Position numbers and translations under genes: made by a program. A stretch of DNA of 22,403 nt from a virus: IMG/VR virus record IMGVR_UViG_3300008267_000433, positions 4,332 through 26,734 of that record; one strand, 5' to 3'. Of this stretch, positions 3 to 22,403 are shown in pieces (positions within the stretch are counted from its first letter, which is position 1; every line of letters starts with the position of its first letter). The notes beneath the pieces are model-generated. The model was not told the origin of the DNA. It saw only the letters and a list, made by a program, of their open reading frames with translations, and did not search any database.

Positions 3-512
3 ACATGGCGTGACGACGATGCTAATGACCACTACAACTACTCGGATATGCATCGTCCGAACTCGGCTCACAACGCCAACGCTCGTGGGGAACATGTCCC
101 CTATCTAAACGAGATGGAAGATTCCGGTTCGGTGTCTTTCCGTGCCGCTCCTGAGAATCTGATGACGTGGAGTGAACACGTTATGTCAGATCCTAATGCT
201 CCAGCACACTGGCGTGAGAAGGCTCAGACGCACGAGTTAGTGGCTCATGTAGGTAAACCACTTTACAGCCGTAATGACCGTAATAAGACAAATAACGTGC
301 AGTTTCCTCTACCCGGTATGGAGCGCTTGGGTCCGACCAAAATGACCGTTGATCGCCCTTCTCTGCCACCTGACGCAGAAATCGCTCATGTGTTTGATGA
401 CACCTATACTGACCGAGTTAGTACTGTAGAGCACAGCACTGAAGTAAAGACTTCACCGCAGCATCGCTATCTTGTATTCGAACCCAAAAAGGGCCGACGT
501 AAGGGTAAGTAA
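3..512 (+). CDS. Unknown protein, 5' end cut off by the window edge
   Basis: The reading frame is open to the first base of the window, so the start lies upstream; the first in-frame ATG visible (position 48) need not be the real start. The visible 169 residues are hydrophilic, rich in His, Asp and Asn, and end in a basic tail (KKGRRKGK). There is no membrane segment, signal peptide or known catalytic motif. The stop overlaps the next start in TAATG, which suggests translational coupling. It belongs to a run of four or five small co-directional genes. Function not recognised. Confidence 0.6.
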   Translation, partial: TWRDDDANDHYNYSDMHRPNSAHNANARGEHVPYLNEMEDSGSVSFRAAPENLMTWSEHVMSDPNAPAHWREKAQTHELVAHVGKPLYSRNDRNKTNNVQFPLPGMERLGPTKMTVDRPSLPPDAEIAHVFDDTYTDRVSTVEHSTEVKTSPQHRYLVFEPKKGRRKGK

Positions 513-4211: not shown

Positions 4212-4430
4212 TTACAGCCAGTATCGATCGATACGGCTTTGTCGGGTGACTAACCTATCTAATTCCATGACAATATCGAAATCCCTGATGTCGCCAGCGC
4301 ATCTATGCTTTGGAAGAGGGTAAGCAGCCTCATGGGTTATCTCAAGCACTATAGGGCATTTTCCGCAGGCTAGTTCAAGGCCCGTAACGGTTGTGTCCTT
4401 CACTTGGAAGGCTATGGCCTTCTTTCCCAT
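4212..4430 (-). CDS. Small Cys/His protein upstream of the endolysin, 72 aa
   Basis: The protein has CGKC (22-25), then H33, H42 and C44, a spacing that could hold a zinc, but it matches no family I can name. There is no membrane segment, so it is not an obvious holin. It is the first gene of the minus-strand endolysin unit, ending 13 nt before the endolysin start, and appears to have its own leaderless promoter (TAATCT 6 nt before ATG). Confidence 0.55.
   Translation of the reverse strand: MGKKAIAFQVKDTTVTGLELACGKCPIVLEITHEAAYPLPKHRCAGDIRDFDIVMELDRLVTRQSRIDRYWL
4221..4234. repeat. Perfect 14-bp palindrome
   Basis: GTATCGATCGATAC is identical to its reverse complement. It lies at the 3' end of the 72-aa gene, about 25 nt upstream of the endolysin start on the minus strand. 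It could be a protein-binding site controlling endolysin, or may only reflect the codons for SRIDRY. Confidence 0.5.
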
Positions 4431-7672: not shown

Positions 7673-7700
7673 TCGCATATGTGGATAAATGCTTTATAGT
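7672..7700 (+). promoter_or_regulatory. Late-region promoter (TTCGCA-N17-TATAGT), leaderless for terminase
   Basis: TTCGCA (7672-7677), a 17-nt spacer, TATAGT (7695-7700), then exactly 6 nt to GTG 7707. There is no ribosome-binding site. The -35 abuts the hairpin. If this is right, the promoter lies inside the longer frame from ATG 7689 and the true start is the GTG. Confidence 0.55.
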
Positions 7701-7706
7701 GTCGTC

Positions 7707-9296
7707 GTGCCAACTTACGAAGATCTAGGTAACCCTGACGACATCGAAGAAAATCACTACGTCGAAGATGACGATCGGGAAGACATCGAAGAGGAAGAAG
7801 AGGATTACGGATTAGACGCTGAGACAGCCGACTTTGTTGACCAGTTAATCAAACGGATCATCATCTTCTGTGAGGAGTTTGCTGGTCTTGAACTTCGTCC
7901 GTACCAGCGACAGTTGGCTTATCGGATCGTTGAATCCCTAGTAATGGTGGACGGCGAGGAGATCACGGCTCTTTGGTCCCGTCAGAGCGGTAAGTCCGAG
8001 ACCCTGTCAGTCATCGTGTCCGGCTGCATGGTGATCCTTCCTAAACTGGCTATGTCGTTTGAGATGCTGGAGCGTTTCAAGCGTGGTCTATGGGTAGGTA
8101 TTTTTGCCCCTGTGGATAGTCAGTCAGACTTCTTGCATGGCCGCATTGTGGATAAGTTGACATCTGAGCACGCTCAGGAATTTCTAAATGACCCCGAACT
8201 GGATGAGCGTGTAGACGGTAAGTCCAAGGTGATCAAACTCCGATCCGGCTCACTATGTCGTCGTTCTACCGCTAACCCTCGTGCAAAGATCGAAGGTGCT
8301 TCGTATCACCTCGTAGTTATTGACGAGGCTCAGGAAGCCGACGACACGATGGTTCGTAAGTCCATCCACCCCATGCTTGCCGCCTATGCAGGCACCATGG
8401 TGAAGATTGGAACTCCTTCGTTCCACAAGGGTGATTTCTACAAGGCCATCCAGTTGAACAAGCGGCGTGGTACTCAGCGACGAAGTCGTATGAATCACTT
8501 TGAATACGACTATCGAACTGTAGGTAAGTACAACCCGTACTATGCCAAGTTCATTGTTCAGGAGAAGTTGCGCCTAGGGGAGGATTCTGACGAGTTTCAG
8601 ATGTCCTACAACCTTAAGTGGATGCTTGACCGAGGCATGCTCGTCGCTGAGGATGATTTGGACTTCTTGGCCGATCCGTCCATGCCACTGGTGAAATCAT
8701 GGCACCGCACGCCGGTAGTGGTCGGTATCGACCCTGCCCGTGTGAAGGACTCCACGGTAGTTACCGTCTGCTGGGTGGATTGGGACTATCCCGATCCTGC
8801 TGGCTTCCGAGAGCACCGAGTGCTGAACTGGCTGGAGATTCAGAACACCGAATGGGAAGACCAGTACTTCCAAATCGTGGACTTCTTGGACAACTACAAC
8901 ATCGCCTATGTGGGCGTTGATGCTCAGGGTATGGGTTCAGCAGTCGCTGAGCGCCTTCAGAGGCTCTTGGAGCATCGCTGCGAGGTCATACCAGTATCGT
9001 CCGATATCAAGACACAGAGCGAGCGTTGGAAGCATCTCATCGCTCTCCTTCAGCGACGCATGATCGTTTACCCCGGTCACTCTAAGGCTCGTCGTACTCG
9101 CATTTGGAAGCGATTCCGTCAACAGATGGAAGATGCCGAGAAGGTCATCAAGGGTAACTACATGCTTATTCAGGCCCCGCCTGATGAGCGTGACTCCCAC
9201 GACGACTTTGTGGACTCGCTGGCTATCGCCTGCGCCATGAGTATCAACGACACAACCCCATATGTGGAGACGTTTGAAGCGCCTTGGTTCAGGTAG
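7707..9296 (+). CDS. terL: Terminase large subunit (packaging ATPase and nuclease)
   Basis: A 529-aa protein from GTG 7707 (an ATG at 7689 would add six residues but overlaps the -10 box). The N-terminal 35 residues are very acidic. The ATPase has a Walker A-like SRQSGKSE (91-98), Walker B VVIDEAQE (203-210) and coupling motif GTPS (235-238). The RNase H-like nuclease has acidic residues at D342 (GIDPA), D405 (DAQG) and in HDDFVDS (498-504). It cuts concatemeric DNA and drives it into the prohead through the portal. No small subunit is recognised nearby. The last seven codons are duplicated after the next gene. Confidence 0.95.
   Translation: MPTYEDLGNPDDIEENHYVEDDDREDIEEEEEDYGLDAETADFVDQLIKRIIIFCEEFAGLELRPYQRQLAYRIVESLVMVDGEEITALWSRQSGKSETLSVIVSGCMVILPKLAMSFEMLERFKRGLWVGIFAPVDSQSDFLHGRIVDKLTSEHAQEFLNDPELDERVDGKSKVIKLRSGSLCRRSTANPRAKIEGASYHLVVIDEAQEADDTMVRKSIHPMLAAYAGTMVKIGTPSFHKGDFYKAIQLNKRRGTQRRSRMNHFEYDYRTVGKYNPYYAKFIVQEKLRLGEDSDEFQMSYNLKWMLDRGMLVAEDDLDFLADPSMPLVKSWHRTPVVVGIDPARVKDSTVVTVCWVDWDYPDPAGFREHRVLNWLEIQNTEWEDQYFQIVDFLDNYNIAYVGVDAQGMGSAVAERLQRLLEHRCEVIPVSSDIKTQSERWKHLIALLQRRMIVYPGHSKARRTRIWKRFRQQMEDAEKVIKGNYMLIQAPPDERDSHDDFVDSLAIACAMSINDTTPYVETFEAPWFR
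9273..9296 (+). repeat. First copy of duplicated terminase tail (FEAPWFR stop)
   Basis: These 24 nt are the actual terminase end. A second copy at 9622-9645 encodes the same seven residues and a stop, with the DNA matching at 18 of 24 positions and all differences synonymous. The two copies flank the ADP-ribosyltransferase-like gene. Confidence 0.85.
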
Positions 9297-9299
9297 AAT
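9294..9299 (+). promoter_or_regulatory. Leaderless -10 element TAGAAT built on the terminase stop codon
   Basis: TAGAAT, then 6 nt, then ATG 9306. Its first three bases are the terminase stop TAG. No ribosome-binding site precedes the ATG. TTTGAA (9273-9278) is the only -35-like hexamer and its spacing (15 nt) is short. Confidence 0.5.
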
Positions 9300-9305
9300 A
9301 GGTGT

Positions 9306-9626
9306 ATGGATTCAGAACACCCTACAACCGTATATCATGGTACTAGTCGTGAGAGCGCCGAATCCATCATGCGGGAAGGCTTCCGTCTAAACGGACATCA
9401 ATTTGGAAAAGTCATTTGGACTTCTCCCGATAAATATGTAGCAGAGGCTTATGCCCATGGAGATAACCCTGCTGTAGTTGAGTCTGTGTTATCTCCAACC
9501 AACCCCTCCAAGGGAGATTGGTATGGAGACAAACCTGAGGCTGACGTAATTCATATTTCCGAGGGGGGTATGCCTGTATCACTAGTAAGAGATTCAGGGA
9601 TTATCACTCCTAAACGTATTCTTTGA
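9306..9626 (+). CDS. Putative ADP-ribosyltransferase-fold protein, 106 aa
   Basis: The start of the protein, YHGTSRESAESIMREGF (10-26), is the signature of small ADP-ribosyltransferase-like proteins: H11 with GTS would hold NAD. It continues with a strand IWTSPD (37-42) and AEAYAHG (46-52), whose Y49 fits the second motif of the H-Y-E/Q class. A clear third-motif Glu is not obvious (candidates lie in EADVIHI, 78-84). It might modify host proteins such as RNA polymerase, or be an inactive relative. It sits between terminase and head genes with its own leaderless promoter and is flanked by the duplicated terminase tail, so it looks like an inserted cassette. Its TGA stop lies inside the second tail copy. 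Confidence 0.6.
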   Translation: MDSEHPTTVYHGTSRESAESIMREGFRLNGHQFGKVIWTSPDKYVAEAYAHGDNPAVVESVLSPTNPSKGDWYGDKPEADVIHISEGGMPVSLVRDSGIITPKRIL

Positions 9627-9645
9627 AGCCCCTTGGTTTCGCTGA
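9622..9645 (+). pseudogene. Relic of the original terminase 3' end (FEAPWFR stop)
   Basis: In the frame TTT GAA GCC CCT TGG TTT CGC TGA this stretch encodes FEAPWFR and a stop, identical in protein to the terminase end at 9273-9296. It has no start of its own. The simplest reading is that the preceding gene was inserted just before this tail and brought a recoded copy that restores terminase. Confidence 0.75.
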
Positions 9646-9654
9646 TATCGATAC

Positions 9655-9682
9655 TTGTGCCATACTGATTGGGTCCCATTAT
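9655..9682 (+). promoter_or_regulatory. Possible promoter ahead of the gene at 9702
   Basis: TTGTGC (9655-9660), 16 nt, CATTAT (9677-9682), followed by AGGAG as ribosome-binding site. The palindrome TATCGATA (9646-9653), also present at 2137-2144, lies just upstream. It may restore expression of genes cut off from terminase by the inserted cassette. Confidence 0.3.
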
Positions 9683-9701
9683 CTCGCTAGGAGACACCCC
9701 A

Positions 9702-10064
9702 ATGGCTTATGCGCCTGAGACCGGCTACGAATATGCGTACGCTGAGAACCTTACCCGTCGTGGCCCGCTTCGTTTCGAAGAGGGTGTCGCTACCGATACC
9801 GATATTCCTTTCGAATTCGGTCGTGGCGCTTACGGCGACACCGAAGGTGACGGACGTGGTCGTCAGACCATGGCTGGCATGATCAAGACCCCGATGGAGA
9901 CCCTTCGTGAGAAGGCTCACGTCGGTTCTGCTACTTGGATTGAGGCTCCGATGGAATTGTCGGAGTTCGTTCAGGGTGCGATGGCTGATCATCCCACCTT
10001 TGAGCGTGTTGCAGGCAGCGAAACCCGCATCCTGCGATTCAACGCCACTGTCGTCAACGACTGA
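9702..10064 (+). CDS. Unknown late protein, 120 aa
   Basis: ATG 9702 has CTAGGAG 8 nt upstream and is preferred over the longer frame from 9669. The acidic protein contains TDTDIPFEFGRGAYGDTEGD (29-48), a Thr/Met-rich helix (MIKTPMETLREKAHVG) and a C-terminal strand region (ETRILRFNATVV). The position between terminase and portal and use of common codons suggest a conserved structural or packaging accessory protein. No family is recognised. Confidence 0.6.
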   Translation: MAYAPETGYEYAYAENLTRRGPLRFEEGVATDTDIPFEFGRGAYGDTEGDGRGRQTMAGMIKTPMETLREKAHVGSATWIEAPMELSEFVQGAMADHPTFERVAGSETRILRFNATVVND

Positions 10065-10075
10065 TCACAACTCCA

Positions 10076-10345
10076 ATGAATTTCGGTCAAGCGCCGGGGT
10101 CTAAGACCGTTCAGAAGAACGCCTATGGTCCCGGCGCTACTGGCCGTCCTAAGGGGAAAAAGACTTCGACCTCTAAGGTCTCTCTTGTACCCCATGCGAA
10201 TGAGGCTCGGATGCCCGAGTATCTCAAAAGCGCAAAAGATCTTATGAACACCTACGGCACTAACGAGTTGCCGACTGGTCTTCAGCCTCGCTGGCTTCTG
10301 AATAAGAAGAATCAGAACATTTCGAAGGGTATGACAGGTAACTGA
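10076..10345 (+). CDS. Small basic protein, 89 aa, unknown
   Basis: It begins 11 nt after the preceding stop, with no clear ribosome-binding site, so translation is probably coupled. The N-terminal 40 residues are Gly-, Ser- and Lys-rich and likely disordered (GRPKGKKTSTSK), followed by a helix (MPEYLKSAKDLMNTYG) and another basic tail. It may bind DNA or the head interior. The stop lies just before the next ATG, so it is in the same operon as its neighbours. Confidence 0.55.
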   Translation: MNFGQAPGSKTVQKNAYGPGATGRPKGKKTSTSKVSLVPHANEARMPEYLKSAKDLMNTYGTNELPTGLQPRWLLNKKNQNISKGMTGN

Positions 10346-10346
10346 T

Positions 10347-11693
10347 ATGGCTAACAGAGATACCCCAATGCAATGGGAAGATTACTCCACCTCTCAACGC
10401 AAGAGCATTGCTTCGGAAATTAACCGTATTGGTAAGTCTACAAAGACCAACGCAGCGGAATCTGTCTCTAAACTTCGTACCACTGAGTCTAAGGAATCTA
10501 ATAAGCAGACTAACAGGGAAAAAGCCGGTAAAAAGGCCAATGTCATTGAGTCTATTGCAGGTACTTTCAAGGATAAGCCTATTACTCTGCAAGGGGCGGC
10601 TAATCGTAGAGGCGCAGCGTTTAGTCGTGCTATCGATTATGCCCGTAACGAAAACACCACTCTTCCGGGCGCTGGGTGGTACATAGATCACTCTGACTCT
10701 ATCCAGCAGTCTCGTGGTGATATTCCTTTCCGCAACGCTGCCGCAGCCGCTGCGGCGTTTAGTCCCGGTAAAGATCCTAAGGTAGACGAGTTACCAGCGT
10801 TTGCTGAATTGGCGAAACTTCATAACGAAGACCATTCAGTAACTGTGGATAACACAAGTAACAAAGTTCGTGATCTTAGTTCCCAAACTCTCGCTAGGTT
10901 TGCTACTCAAGCGGCTGCTGAGAACTCGGCTAACGCTGAGCGTACAGTAGTTTCTTCATCTGAGACATTCCATGTGGCTGGTAGGCCCCATGAAAGAATG
11001 ACTGTTAAGGGTATCGACGCTATGCGTGGGGTTACGTCTCCCGAGACGACAAATGACCCAATGACTGCTCCTAAGACATCCTCATACTTCCATTCTATTG
11101 CTGATGCAGGCGAAGCATCATTGGAAGAGAAGATAGATTACGAGAGCATCGCTAGACATCTAGTGACTGGAGACCCCAAACAAGGGATGTTGATGTTCTC
11201 CGCTAAGGAGCCGGGAGCACCTGCTAAAAACAGTATTCTCAGCCCGGACCACGATACTGCTGAAGACACTTGGATGCAGGCTATTTCTTCGGGACAGGCA
11301 CTTTCTGCTAAGCAGAATGGTCGCAACTTTTCACCCGCTAAGCGTGCGGTTGATAAGGGTGGACCGGGAGATATGGCCTCTTTTCAGAAGAGGAACACAG
11401 ATCTTCCTAAGGTCGCTGAGATTACTAGTGTAGGCGCAGTCCATGCCTTTAATAATAAAGCCACCCGAATGGCTGCATCGGACGTAGGACCTGTTTCGTT
11501 TGACCAGTTTGGTCAGCATATTCAGGTACCTTCTGTGATGATGCAGGAGGTTGCTTGGACTCAGGCTCGCCGTGAAGCAGGTGGCGATGCTCCATTCAAT
11601 GCCTCCCAACGACAGAAGGCCAAAGCGGATAAGGCCGCAGCCTCTGAACGTCGTAGCAACGAAAGCGGCATCCAAGATTCTTTGTTCGACTGA
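10347..11693 (+). CDS. Unknown 448-aa late protein between terminase and portal
   Basis: The ATG follows the previous stop by one base, within a strongly coupled run. The first 70 residues are Ser-, Lys- and Thr-rich and disordered-looking. A helical core from about 75 to 165 contains AGWYIDHSDSIQQ and a run of Ala ending in AAAFSPGKDP (about 133-142). This W-Y ... Ala-rich ... SPG layout resembles a family of phage proteins I cannot name. A second ordered region (about 255-330) has YESIARHLVTGDPKQG and KNSILSPDHDTAEDTWM. The C-terminal 40 residues are highly charged. There is no membrane segment or signal peptide. It could be a capsid-internal or packaging protein. Confidence 0.6.
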   Translation: MANRDTPMQWEDYSTSQRKSIASEINRIGKSTKTNAAESVSKLRTTESKESNKQTNREKAGKKANVIESIAGTFKDKPITLQGAANRRGAAFSRAIDYARNENTTLPGAGWYIDHSDSIQQSRGDIPFRNAAAAAAAFSPGKDPKVDELPAFAELAKLHNEDHSVTVDNTSNKVRDLSSQTLARFATQAAAENSANAERTVVSSSETFHVAGRPHERMTVKGIDAMRGVTSPETTNDPMTAPKTSSYFHSIADAGEASLEEKIDYESIARHLVTGDPKQGMLMFSAKEPGAPAKNSILSPDHDTAEDTWMQAISSGQALSAKQNGRNFSPAKRAVDKGGPGDMASFQKRNTDLPKVAEITSVGAVHAFNNKATRMAASDVGPVSFDQFGQHIQVPSVMMQEVAWTQARREAGGDAPFNASQRQKAKADKAAASERRSNESGIQDSLFD

Positions 11694-19625: not shown

Positions 19626-22403
19626 ATGGAAATCATTCCTGTTACTAATAACAGTCCGGCCACTATCAACCCTCAGCCACCTGCTGAGATCATCATTACT
19701 CCCGGCGCTCAGACCGGGACTGTTGGCGTTGTAACTACGCCTCTTTCAGGACCCCGAGGACCTCAAGGTGCTCAGGGTAATCAGGGTGCTCAAGGCGAGG
19801 AAGGTCCCCAAGGTAATCAAGGTACCCAAGGATCTCGTGGATCACAGGGCTATGACGGCGCTAAAGGAAACCAAGGAAACCAAGGTAATCAGGGCGCTCA
19901 GGGATCTATTGGTGCTCAGGGGCCTCAAGGAACTACCGGATACCAAGGTAACCAAGGCGCTGTAGGCCCTCAGGGCGCTACAGGAGCACAGGGAACTGCC
20001 GGTTCGCAAGGTACGCAGGGACAACGTGGTTATCAGGGGTACCAAGGTAATCAAGGGTCTAACGGATACCAAGGTCCTCAGGGTGTAGGTGGCGCACAAG
20101 GCGTTCAAGGTTCTCAGGGACCTCAAGGAGACACAGGCTCACAGGGAGTACAAGGTCACCAAGGCGAAGAGGGCGTACAAGGTACGCAAGGTACGCAAGG
20201 TACGCAAGGCCATCAGGGGTATCAGGGTTCACAAGGTGAGACCGGTACACAGGGTTTTCAAGGACACGAGGGCACCCAAGGTTTTCAAGGCCCTCAGGGC
20301 GTTCAGGGTCACCAAGGTACACAGGGTGTGCAGGGTGAGACCGGTGACCAAGGAGTACAAGGTTTTCAGGGTCACCAAGGCTTTCAAGGCGTTCAGGGTA
20401 CCCAAGGAAATCAAGGTGACGTAGGAGCGCAGGGCGTTCAAGGTCATCAGGGAACTCAAGGTCCACAGGGCGTTCAGGGTCACCAAGGTTTCCAAGGTCA
20501 GGTCGGTTCTGAAGGTCCACAGGGCGTTCAGGGACATCAGGGCGTACAAGGCAATCAGGGGTACCAAGGCGTACAGGGCGAGGTTGGTGCTCAGGGTTTC
20601 CAAGGAAATCAGGGCAACCAAGGCTTCCAAGGTGGTCAGGGCGTTCAAGGTCACCAAGGGTTCCAAGGAACTCAAGGTGTACAAGGGCATCAAGGTCACC
20701 AAGGAGAGATTGGTGCTCAGGGATCTCAGGGTGTCCAAGGACATCAGGGCTTTCAGGGCGTTACCGGTTCCCAAGGAAACGAAGGACCTCAGGGTCTTTC
20801 CGGCCCGCAAGGCCATCAAGGTCATCAGGGATTCCAAGGTAATCAGGGATTTCAGGGCAACCAAGGAACCACTGGTTCTCAGGGAACTCAAGGCTTCCAA
20901 GGTAATCAGGGTTTCCAAGGTAATCAAGGCGATACCGGAGCACAGGGAAATCAGGGTAACCAAGGCTCACAGGGAAACCAAGGCGTTCAGGGATCTCAGG
21001 GAAATCAGGGTAACCAAGGCTCACAGGGTCCTCAGGGCTATCAAGGTTCTGATGGAACGTCTGTAACTATCCTCGGTTCGTATAACGACTATGCGACCTT
21101 CATTGCGGCGCATCCAACCGGTTCTCTCGGGGACGGTTACCTTGTCGATGGCGATCTCTATGTTTGGGACGGTAGCGGCTGGAATAATGTCGGCACCATC
21201 GAAGGTCCCCAAGGGTCTCAAGGAACGCAGGGCTTCCAAGGTGATACTGGCCCTCAGGGAAACCAAGGAGACACCGGTACACAAGGCTCTCAGGGCTTCC
21301 AAGGCGACACGGGTCCTCAGGGCGATACTGGATCGCAAGGTTTTCAGGGAGACCAAGGACCTCAGGGTTTGGACGGCCCTCAGGGCTATCAGGGTGATAT
21401 CGGACCACAAGGCGATCAAGGCCCACAGGGTTTCCAAGGCGATCAGGGACCTCAGGGTTTCCAAGGTCATCAAGGAGAACAGGGATCTCAAGGCGTACAA
21501 GGTTCTGACGGTGTTCAAGGTTTCCAAGGCGAAACCGGCGCTCAAGGCGTTCAGGGTCATCAAGGCGACGACGGTGCTCAAGGATTCCAAGGTGAGGTTG
21601 GCGAACAAGGGACTCAAGGATTCCAAGGTACGCAAGGTAATCAAGGTTCCGTAGGTTCCCAAGGAACTCAGGGATATCAGGGTTTCCAAGGAACAGTTGG
21701 TGCCAAGGGTGATACCGGGGACGAGGGTCCTCAGGGTGTCACTGGTTCTGTTGGCGCACAAGGCTCCGCTGGCATCGATGGCCCGCAAGGCTTCCAAGGA
21801 GCCGAAGGTCCTCAAGGTGATACAGGTTCTACTGGATCGCAAGGTACTCAGGGGTATCAAGGTGATACCGGCAATACCGGATCTCAAGGTACGCAGGGTA
21901 ATCAAGGATTCCAAGGCACTCAGGGAGTTCAAGGATCGACCGGGTCCCAAGGTAATCAAGGCGTTGCTGGTCCTCAAGGAAACGAAGGACCTCAGGGTCT
22001 TACAGGGTCACAGGGTCCACAAGGCAATGAGGGTCCTCAGGGAACTACAGGCTCCCAAGGCGCTCAGGGACACCAAGGTGACGACGGTGTTCAAGGAGTT
22101 CAAGGTCATCAGGGGTTCCAAGGAACACAAGGTGTCGATGGACCACAAGGCTTCCAAGGCAACCAAGGTCTAACCGGATCTCAAGGAACTCAAGGAGACA
22201 CCGGTAGTCAAGGCTCTACTGGGTCACAAGGCAACCAAGGTACGCAGGGACCACAGGGCTTAACGGGTTCTCAGGGTTCGCAAGGCGATGTCGGTTCTCA
22301 AGGAAACCAAGGTAATGAAGGAATACCCGGCGCTACGGGTTTCCAAGGACCTCAAGGAAACGACGGAAGCCAAGGATTCCAAGGTGATACCGGAGCACAG
22401 GGC
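19626..22403 (+). CDS. Giant collagen-like fibre protein (Gly-X-Gln repeats), 3' end beyond window
   Basis: The ATG follows GAGGT near the preceding stop, and the frame stays open for all 926 codons to the window edge. Residues 1-41 are a non-repeat head (possible virion anchor). Residues 42-476 are 145 unbroken Gly-X-Y triplets, 477-526 are a small globular insert, and triplets resume from 527 to the edge. Y is Gln in about four of five triplets by hand count; X is often Asn, Thr, Val, His, Phe, Tyr, Ser or Ala, and seldom Pro. It probably forms a long trimeric stalk with the receptor-binding end still to come. The final length is unknown. Confidence 0.85.
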   Translation, partial: MEIIPVTNNSPATINPQPPAEIIITPGAQTGTVGVVTTPLSGPRGPQGAQGNQGAQGEEGPQGNQGTQGSRGSQGYDGAKGNQGNQGNQGAQGSIGAQGPQGTTGYQGNQGAVGPQGATGAQGTAGSQGTQGQRGYQGYQGNQGSNGYQGPQGVGGAQGVQGSQGPQGDTGSQGVQGHQGEEGVQGTQGTQGTQGHQGYQGSQGETGTQGFQGHEGTQGFQGPQGVQGHQGTQGVQGETGDQGVQGFQGHQGFQGVQGTQGNQGDVGAQGVQGHQGTQGPQGVQGHQGFQGQVGSEGPQGVQGHQGVQGNQGYQGVQGEVGAQGFQGNQGNQGFQGGQGVQGHQGFQGTQGVQGHQGHQGEIGAQGSQGVQGHQGFQGVTGSQGNEGPQGLSGPQGHQGHQGFQGNQGFQGNQGTTGSQGTQGFQGNQGFQGNQGDTGAQGNQGNQGSQGNQGVQGSQGNQGNQGSQGPQGYQGSDGTSVTILGSYNDYATFIAAHPTGSLGDGYLVDGDLYVWDGSGWNNVGTIEGPQGSQGTQGFQGDTGPQGNQGDTGTQGSQGFQGDTGPQGDTGSQGFQGDQGPQGLDGPQGYQGDIGPQGDQGPQGFQGDQGPQGFQGHQGEQGSQGVQGSDGVQGFQGETGAQGVQGHQGDDGAQGFQGEVGEQGTQGFQGTQGNQGSVGSQGTQGYQGFQGTVGAKGDTGDEGPQGVTGSVGAQGSAGIDGPQGFQGAEGPQGDTGSTGSQGTQGYQGDTGNTGSQGTQGNQGFQGTQGVQGSTGSQGNQGVAGPQGNEGPQGLTGSQGPQGNEGPQGTTGSQGAQGHQGDDGVQGVQGHQGFQGTQGVDGPQGFQGNQGLTGSQGTQGDTGSQGSTGSQGNQGTQGPQGLTGSQGSQGDVGSQGNQGNEGIPGATGFQGPQGNDGSQGFQGDTGAQG
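19749..21053 (+). repeat. First Gly-X-Y repeat block, 145 triplets
   Basis: A 9-nt periodic pattern (GGN NNN CAR) runs without a phase break. Gln alternates between CAA and CAG, and Gly between GGT, GGC, GGA and GGG, so the DNA is much less repetitive than the protein. Long false open frames on the other strand come from this pattern. Confidence 0.9.
21054..21203 (+). other. Globular insert within the collagen-like fibre
   Basis: Fifty codons break the triplet repeat: TSVTILGSYNDYATF, then a turn with HPTGSLGDGYLVDGDLYVW and DGSGWNNVG. The hydrophobic and aromatic pattern suggests a small beta domain of the kind that interrupts collagen-like phage fibres, perhaps to set the register of the three chains or to bind a ligand. 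Confidence 0.65.
21204..22403 (+). repeat. Second Gly-X-Y repeat block, continues past the window
   Basis: The triplets resume directly after the globular insert (GPQ first) and continue for 400 codons to the last base. This block has more non-Gln Y positions (GDT, GDD, GST, GSV and similar) than the first, so its composition shifts along the fibre. Confidence 0.85.

Follow-up and report, generated by a model that had tools for sequence, protein, structure and literature searches.

Organization of the terminase locus

The window, the whole 22,403-nt stretch of viral DNA analysed here, belongs to a source record that is a 26.7-kb fragment and contains a terminase large subunit gene followed by a small gene and the next conserved gene (Table 1). 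The terminase has 535 residues and ends FEAPWFR-stop at 9273-9296 (TTTGAAGCGCCTTGGTTCAGGTAG); the same peptide and stop are encoded again at 9622-9645 (TTTGAAGCCCCTTGGTTTCGCTGA). These two tail copies agree at 18 of 24 bases and differ at 6 of 24, every codon difference being synonymous, and the best tail-like match in the window cassette scores 14.5, where 1000 shuffles gave at most 12.0 (p ~0.001). The doubled tail had been described in the initial annotation, and both copies lie where it placed them, with a similarity beyond chance. It had also put a -10 box on the terminase stop codon and the stop codon of the small gene within the second tail; TAGAAT indeed begins at the terminase TAG, and the TGA of the small gene (9624-9626) falls inside the second copy. 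The putative promoter of the next gene starts within the native terminase tail and is largely retained in cassette-bearing relatives.

Table 1. Features at the terminase 3' end (window coordinates).
Feature	Position	Strand	Evidence and remarks
Terminase large subunit gene	7689..9296	+	Pfam Terminase_6C 4.8e-11; phrog_2 4e-30; insertion site at its 3' end
First tail copy, functional terminase end FEAPWFR-stop	9273..9296	+	Sequence; imported recoded part is the final CAGGTAG
CCTTGGTT, shared core, end of homology to empty-site relatives	9282..9289	+	BLASTN break at 9289, three relatives
Inserted unit of 349 bp: leader with -10 box, small gene, second tail to CCTTGGTT	9290..9638	+	BLASTN
TAGAAT, putative -10 box starting on the terminase stop codon	9294..9299	+	6 nt before ATG; sequence
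ART-like protein, 106 aa	9306..9626	+	ART-PolyVal 3.6e-5, below cut-off; candidate triad H11-Y49-D80
Second tail copy, untranslated, recipient's native terminase tail	9622..9645	+	Collinear across the downstream region with L017 and L027
Putative next-gene promoter: TTTCGC, 18 nt, CATACT	9637..9666	+	Compared in L004, L010, L011, L013, L014, L017, L027
Conserved gene that follows and forms the right border (MAYAPETGYE..., GPLRFEEGVATDTD motif)	9702..10064	+	At 51 of 57 distinct terminase ends

Judged by its sequence, the small protein is ADP-ribosyltransferase (ART)-like and not a proven ART. Its match to the Pfam family ART-PolyVal (E 3.6e-5) is sub-threshold, with 25 bits against a curated cut-off of 31.2, and tblastn finds the MuF fusion protein of phage Schubert (1e-4). 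The protein contains an HGT motif, and H11, Y49 and D80 are plausible from an alignment of three sequences that is not structure-based. The family match and the motif speak for the ADP-ribosyltransferase-like label of the initial annotation, while the bit score falls short of the family. AlphaFold2 run without an alignment, on the single sequence, gave a pLDDT of 42, too poor for a structure-library search, and the ART homologues found in IMG/VR come only from the same virus. The ARTs of polyvalent proteins use H, Y and D (PMC5512222); the window protein resembles these HYD-type domains in its HGT motif, candidate H-Y-D residues and weak ART-PolyVal match, and differs from them in being a stand-alone protein of 106 residues below the family cut-off. 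The GC content of the ART ORF is 45.5%, against 51.6% for the window, which places it in the lowest 5% of windows. By analogy with T4 Alt and Mod, the protein may modify a host protein.

Boundaries of the insert and empty sites

Terminase relatives were taken from viral contigs, and the interval from the terminase to the next gene was read in each. In BLASTN comparisons with L017, L027 and L004, alignment of the window breaks off after base 9289, the end of CCTTGGTT, and resumes at window base 9625 (L017), 9622 (L027) and 9635 (L004). Both alignments use the same 14 subject bases in L017 and the same 17 in L027; we take such doubly used bases at a break as the signature of an insertion accompanied by tail duplication. 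Since the alignment stops at 9289 and resumes in the second tail, the insert comprises 9290-9638, a unit of 349 bp that accords with the compact cassette of about 350 bp at a coding site proposed earlier. L017 and L027 are empty sites in which the terminase runs directly into the leader of the next gene, as had been predicted for relatives of this kind; an empty junction would read GCGCCTTGGTTTCGCTGATATCG. When the flanks of the insert are joined computationally, an intact FEAPWFR-stop is obtained, followed by the promoter region of the next gene. The absence of the small gene from L017 and L027 suggests that it would be dispensable for lytic growth. A nucleotide search of cultured phages returned no full match; in the cultured Streptomyces relatives BRock, GiJojo and LuckySocke the slot is empty, because 46 nt separate the terminase and the next gene.

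Window 9625-10352 is 95.9% identical to L017, so the second copy and the DNA that follows it are native. CAGGTAGAATA, the end of the first copy, is present in the cassette carriers L009 and L013 and absent at the empty sites; thus the incoming end replaces the last terminase codons and makes the -10 box. On these comparisons of sequence, what was imported and recoded is the end of the first tail copy, and the second copy is the native one, in agreement with the proposal that a recoded copy arrived with the cassette and kept the terminase intact. Over the 410 nt on the left, the nearest relative is L027 (94.9%, with L017 at 91.2%); over the 420 nt on the right it is L004 (97.6%), and the identity to L027 drops to 82.7%. 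The slot may mark a boundary of exchange, as these flank identities, from three relatives, which are few, fit a crossover at or near it.

A second record, which shows no difference from the window over the compared stretches (L001, L003 and L040) and may represent the same virus, contains the junction too. L119, a contig from another sample that may likewise be the same virus, is identical to the window over 6846 bp, ending at the junction. An assembly artefact was rejected, as the junction recurs in the second record and this further contig. L119 ends 5 bases ahead of the second tail, at the border of cassette and tail, an end that might be expected if coexisting variants broke the assembly there. 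A search of genome contigs for FEAPWFR-stop gave two matches.

The cassette leader

In most cassettes of the relatives, a -10-like hexamer ends 6 nt ahead of the ATG. A consensus scan found no -35 for TAGAAT, and hence no full promoter; the full sigma-70 consensus is missing. There is no terminator-like site in 9200-9750. Given the 6 nt from the -10-like hexamer to the ATG, the cassette transcript would be a leaderless mRNA. The leader CCNTGGTTCAGG(TAATGC)TAGAATA is common to unrelated cargo and, among all loci compared, is confined to this site. A dispersed promoter or repeat family was rejected, the tail-leader motif occurring once in the window and, among all loci, at this site only; a search for Rfam elements found none.

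Two different cargo genes, in L081 and L091, have the same leader TAGTAGCGTCCGGTCATG just past the terminase stop. Further accessory genes with a -10-like hexamer 6 nt before the ATG are found at 903 and 5059 (minus strand) of the window and at 1078 and 2276 of L187, a stretch upstream of the window (G000:C1:1-4400), which suggests that leaderless accessory genes are widespread in this phage.

A recurrent slot with variable cargo

Among 57 distinct terminase ends, the slot is empty in 31, occupied in 20 and not judgeable in 6, where the contig ends or the border gene is unrecognised; 51 have both flanking genes. Other cassettes at the site, for which the initial annotation had advised a search, are thus found at 20 of 51 terminase ends. 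The cargo is varied, comprising ART-like, Arr, GNAT, HNH-endonuclease and unknown genes. L004 carries a 174-aa protein of unknown kind, L009 a 136-aa protein followed by a second cassette, L010 and L011 proteins of about 290 residues (the fold of the L010 cassette family was too poor for a structure-library search), and L013 an Arr-family gene, a possible zinc-ribbon protein and a third gene. The slots of L014 and L015 hold other cargo, and the wider family adds GNAT (L080) and HNH (L070 and L076). The cargo is shuffled, with MGLIG/MGLLG-type genes in L004 and L013 and MAAKDN-type genes in L009, L010 and L011. An ART at such a site had been considered unusual, a view that does not hold here, because Arr-family and other ART-like genes occupy the slots of relatives. 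The gene at L013:6597-6926 is an Arr-family (rifampin) ADP-ribosyltransferase by its match to PF12120 (Arr-ms, 4.9e-8, above the Pfam cut-off). It lies far below the NCBIfam equivalog cut-off, so a resistance function is not to be assumed.

Tail repeats beyond chance (each p ~0.001) are present in the window, L009 (19/19), L013 (23/24) and L004 (13/14, partial), and 3 of the 20 occupied sites have in-frame tail peptides, where 0.05 would be expected. The duplication is not universal, since L010, L011, L014 and L015 contain no significant tail copy; these could be old, eroded insertions or have followed a different route.

The kinds of genes in L187 and in window 48-512 match the slot cargo. 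L187 contains a GNAT-like gene (695) and MSRRDHFDSGHG (1078), which is like the L014 cassette, and its gene from 3997 resembles the L010/L011 cassette at 34-35% over short stretches and probably extends over an N gap (4302-4331) as far as window 512. From about 19600 to its end at 22403, the window holds a long repeat-rich region of collagen-like look with overlapping open frames on both strands.

Proposed mechanism and alternatives

We propose an accessory-gene slot that separates the terminase gene from the next head gene. A leader, a small ORF and a tail would have entered it when a cassette-bearing relative and an empty-site phage sharing a cell recombined within the terminase tail. On the left, the junction would lie at CCTTGGTT, after which the incoming CAGGTAGAATA would give the last terminase codons, the stop and the -10 box; the right junction would lie in the recipient's own tail, kept as the second copy and bearing the start of the next-gene promoter. 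With two copies of the tail in place, both the reading frame of the terminase and the promoter downstream would survive the insertion. Recombination between the tail copies would excise the cassette, leaving the tail intact again. The cargo would be transcribed on its own, into a leaderless mRNA, and its predicted product is a small ADP-ribosyltransferase acting on a host or rival target. An accessory slot that preserves its essential neighbour through a recoded tail is well supported. We consider the explanation as a whole, a moron-like slot in which tail recombination gains, swaps or loses cassettes with the terminase and the next-gene promoter unbroken, to be the probable one, if by no means a secure one. 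General recombination in mixed infection would be the preferred route, and homing, past or present, its main rival; no recombination event was observed, and one sequence does not tell whether a junction is homologous, microhomologous or enzyme-made.

Homing would mean that a terminase tail without an insert is cut by a free-standing HNH endonuclease, since lost or encoded at another place, and that repair of the break copies the neighbours of a recoded, cut-resistant tail; small cargo such as the ART would have replaced the nuclease or would ride along in collaborative homing. The slot of L070 contains an HNH endonuclease (phrog_3377, 2.4e-40), also present in a second contig, whose ORF ends RIPFYR-stop, a recoded copy of the L070 terminase tail SPFYR-stop, and for this reason the comparison with homing elements made in the initial annotation has support in the family. 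The recoded tail could block recutting, and endonuclease genes are reported near terminases and at boundaries of genetic exchange (PMC10448857). Against this, the tail match of L070 at the nucleotide level alone is not significant (p 0.10), its in-frame peptide being one of the three such matches, and L076 has an HNH gene in the slot without a tail copy. The window cassette itself encodes no nuclease, HNH genes occurring at the slot only in the relatives L070 and L076, and no phrog_3377 HNH was found in the window record or 13 related records, all of them fragments; a brief look at the other HNH relatives L130 and L131 saw no terminase beside them. Either escape from a homing nuclease or the need for a -10 box alone can explain the recoding, so that reading it as homing-like has the L070 parallel behind it, while the -10 box accounts for it at least as well. 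We regard a homing-driven slot as unlikely, though it deserves to be kept in mind.

Site-specific recombination, in which a phage or host recombinase would swap cassettes at a core site within CCTTGGTT, as with integron cassettes or islands that rebuild 3' ends, is improbable. It would account for the left break at the same base against three relatives, for the compact ORF-plus-repeat units and for the tandem cassettes of L009 and L013. The right-hand repeats, on the other hand, vary in extent (from TTTGAAGCC in the window, AAGCG in L009, CCCC in L013 and GG in L004), no recombinase was recognised among the cassette genes, and no inverted repeats of at least 14 nt, whether attC-like or transposon termini, were found in 8800-10200. 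A transposon was rejected, given the lack of inverted repeats and the 6 of 24 differing bases between the tail copies, which are not an identical target duplication.

There is very little likelihood that the second copy is merely a conserved next-gene promoter overlapping the terminase end, with an incidental peptide match. TTTCG...CATACT or a close variant is kept without a full tail in L004, L010, L011, L013 and L014, and the promoter overlap likely explains which part of the tail survives longest; the window, however, retains a further 15 bases (TTTGAAGCCCCTTGG) unexpected for such a promoter, the repeats of L009 and L013 sit between cassettes, and the full copy is left unexplained. A local tandem duplication of the terminase end, with the gene filled in later, would give two copies encoding the same peptide and is the hardest to credit, as the sources differ: the end of the first copy resembles L009 and L013, and the second copy and downstream DNA resemble the empty-site L017.

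Beyond the preferred recombination at an accessory slot, we offer as speculation, doubtful but worth stating, that the terminase tail is an active cassette-exchange site whose duplicated, recoded end serves as coding sequence, promoter and recombination anchor, allowing phages to take up, stack and shed cassettes of a single gene (ART, Arr, GNAT, zinc-ribbon and others) with no recombinase encoded, the site perhaps having been founded by an HNH homing endonuclease later replaced by cargo. How single accessory genes enter tightly packed phage genomes with essential genes unbroken is poorly documented; here the states before and after are both visible, with boundaries placed to the base. This anatomy is repeated around other cargo, an HNH endonuclease among it, and the takeover of homing-type sites by non-nuclease cargo thereby becomes testable.

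Comparison with known systems

The slot shares its position beside an essential gene with phage homing endonucleases, including T4 seg/mob (PMC2988022), the ICP1 T5orf172 and IPA-HNH genes (PMC10448857) and the Skunavirus HNHE, an HNH nuclease between the terminase and portal genes (PMC12724721). Free-standing endonucleases of T4 can overlap the gene ahead of them or be expressed from promoters in its 3' region (PMC2988022), and the HNH cargo of L070 ends on a recoded tail copy; the window cassette differs in carrying ART-like cargo and no nuclease. Recoded duplicate tails around non-nuclease cargo are not described in the passages covered by a limited search of the literature.

Like morons, the cassette adds one gene where relatives have two neighbouring ones, with a putative promoter of its own, lower GC and variable cargo. 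It differs from them in that no terminator-like site was found. A further difference of the slot is that the recoded end of the essential gene upstream forms the promoter, and the old end of that gene persists downstream. Integrative elements of the type that restores the 3' end of the target gene bring in a replacement end and displace the old one downstream. The slot is alike in this respect, and differs in its tiny size, right-hand repeats of varying extent and lack of a recognised integrase. Integron gene cassettes are similar in their compact ORF with a recombination-prone repeat, tandem arrays and variable cargo; in the slot, neither an attC-like inverted repeat nor an integron integrase was seen, and each cassette is provided with its own -10-like box.
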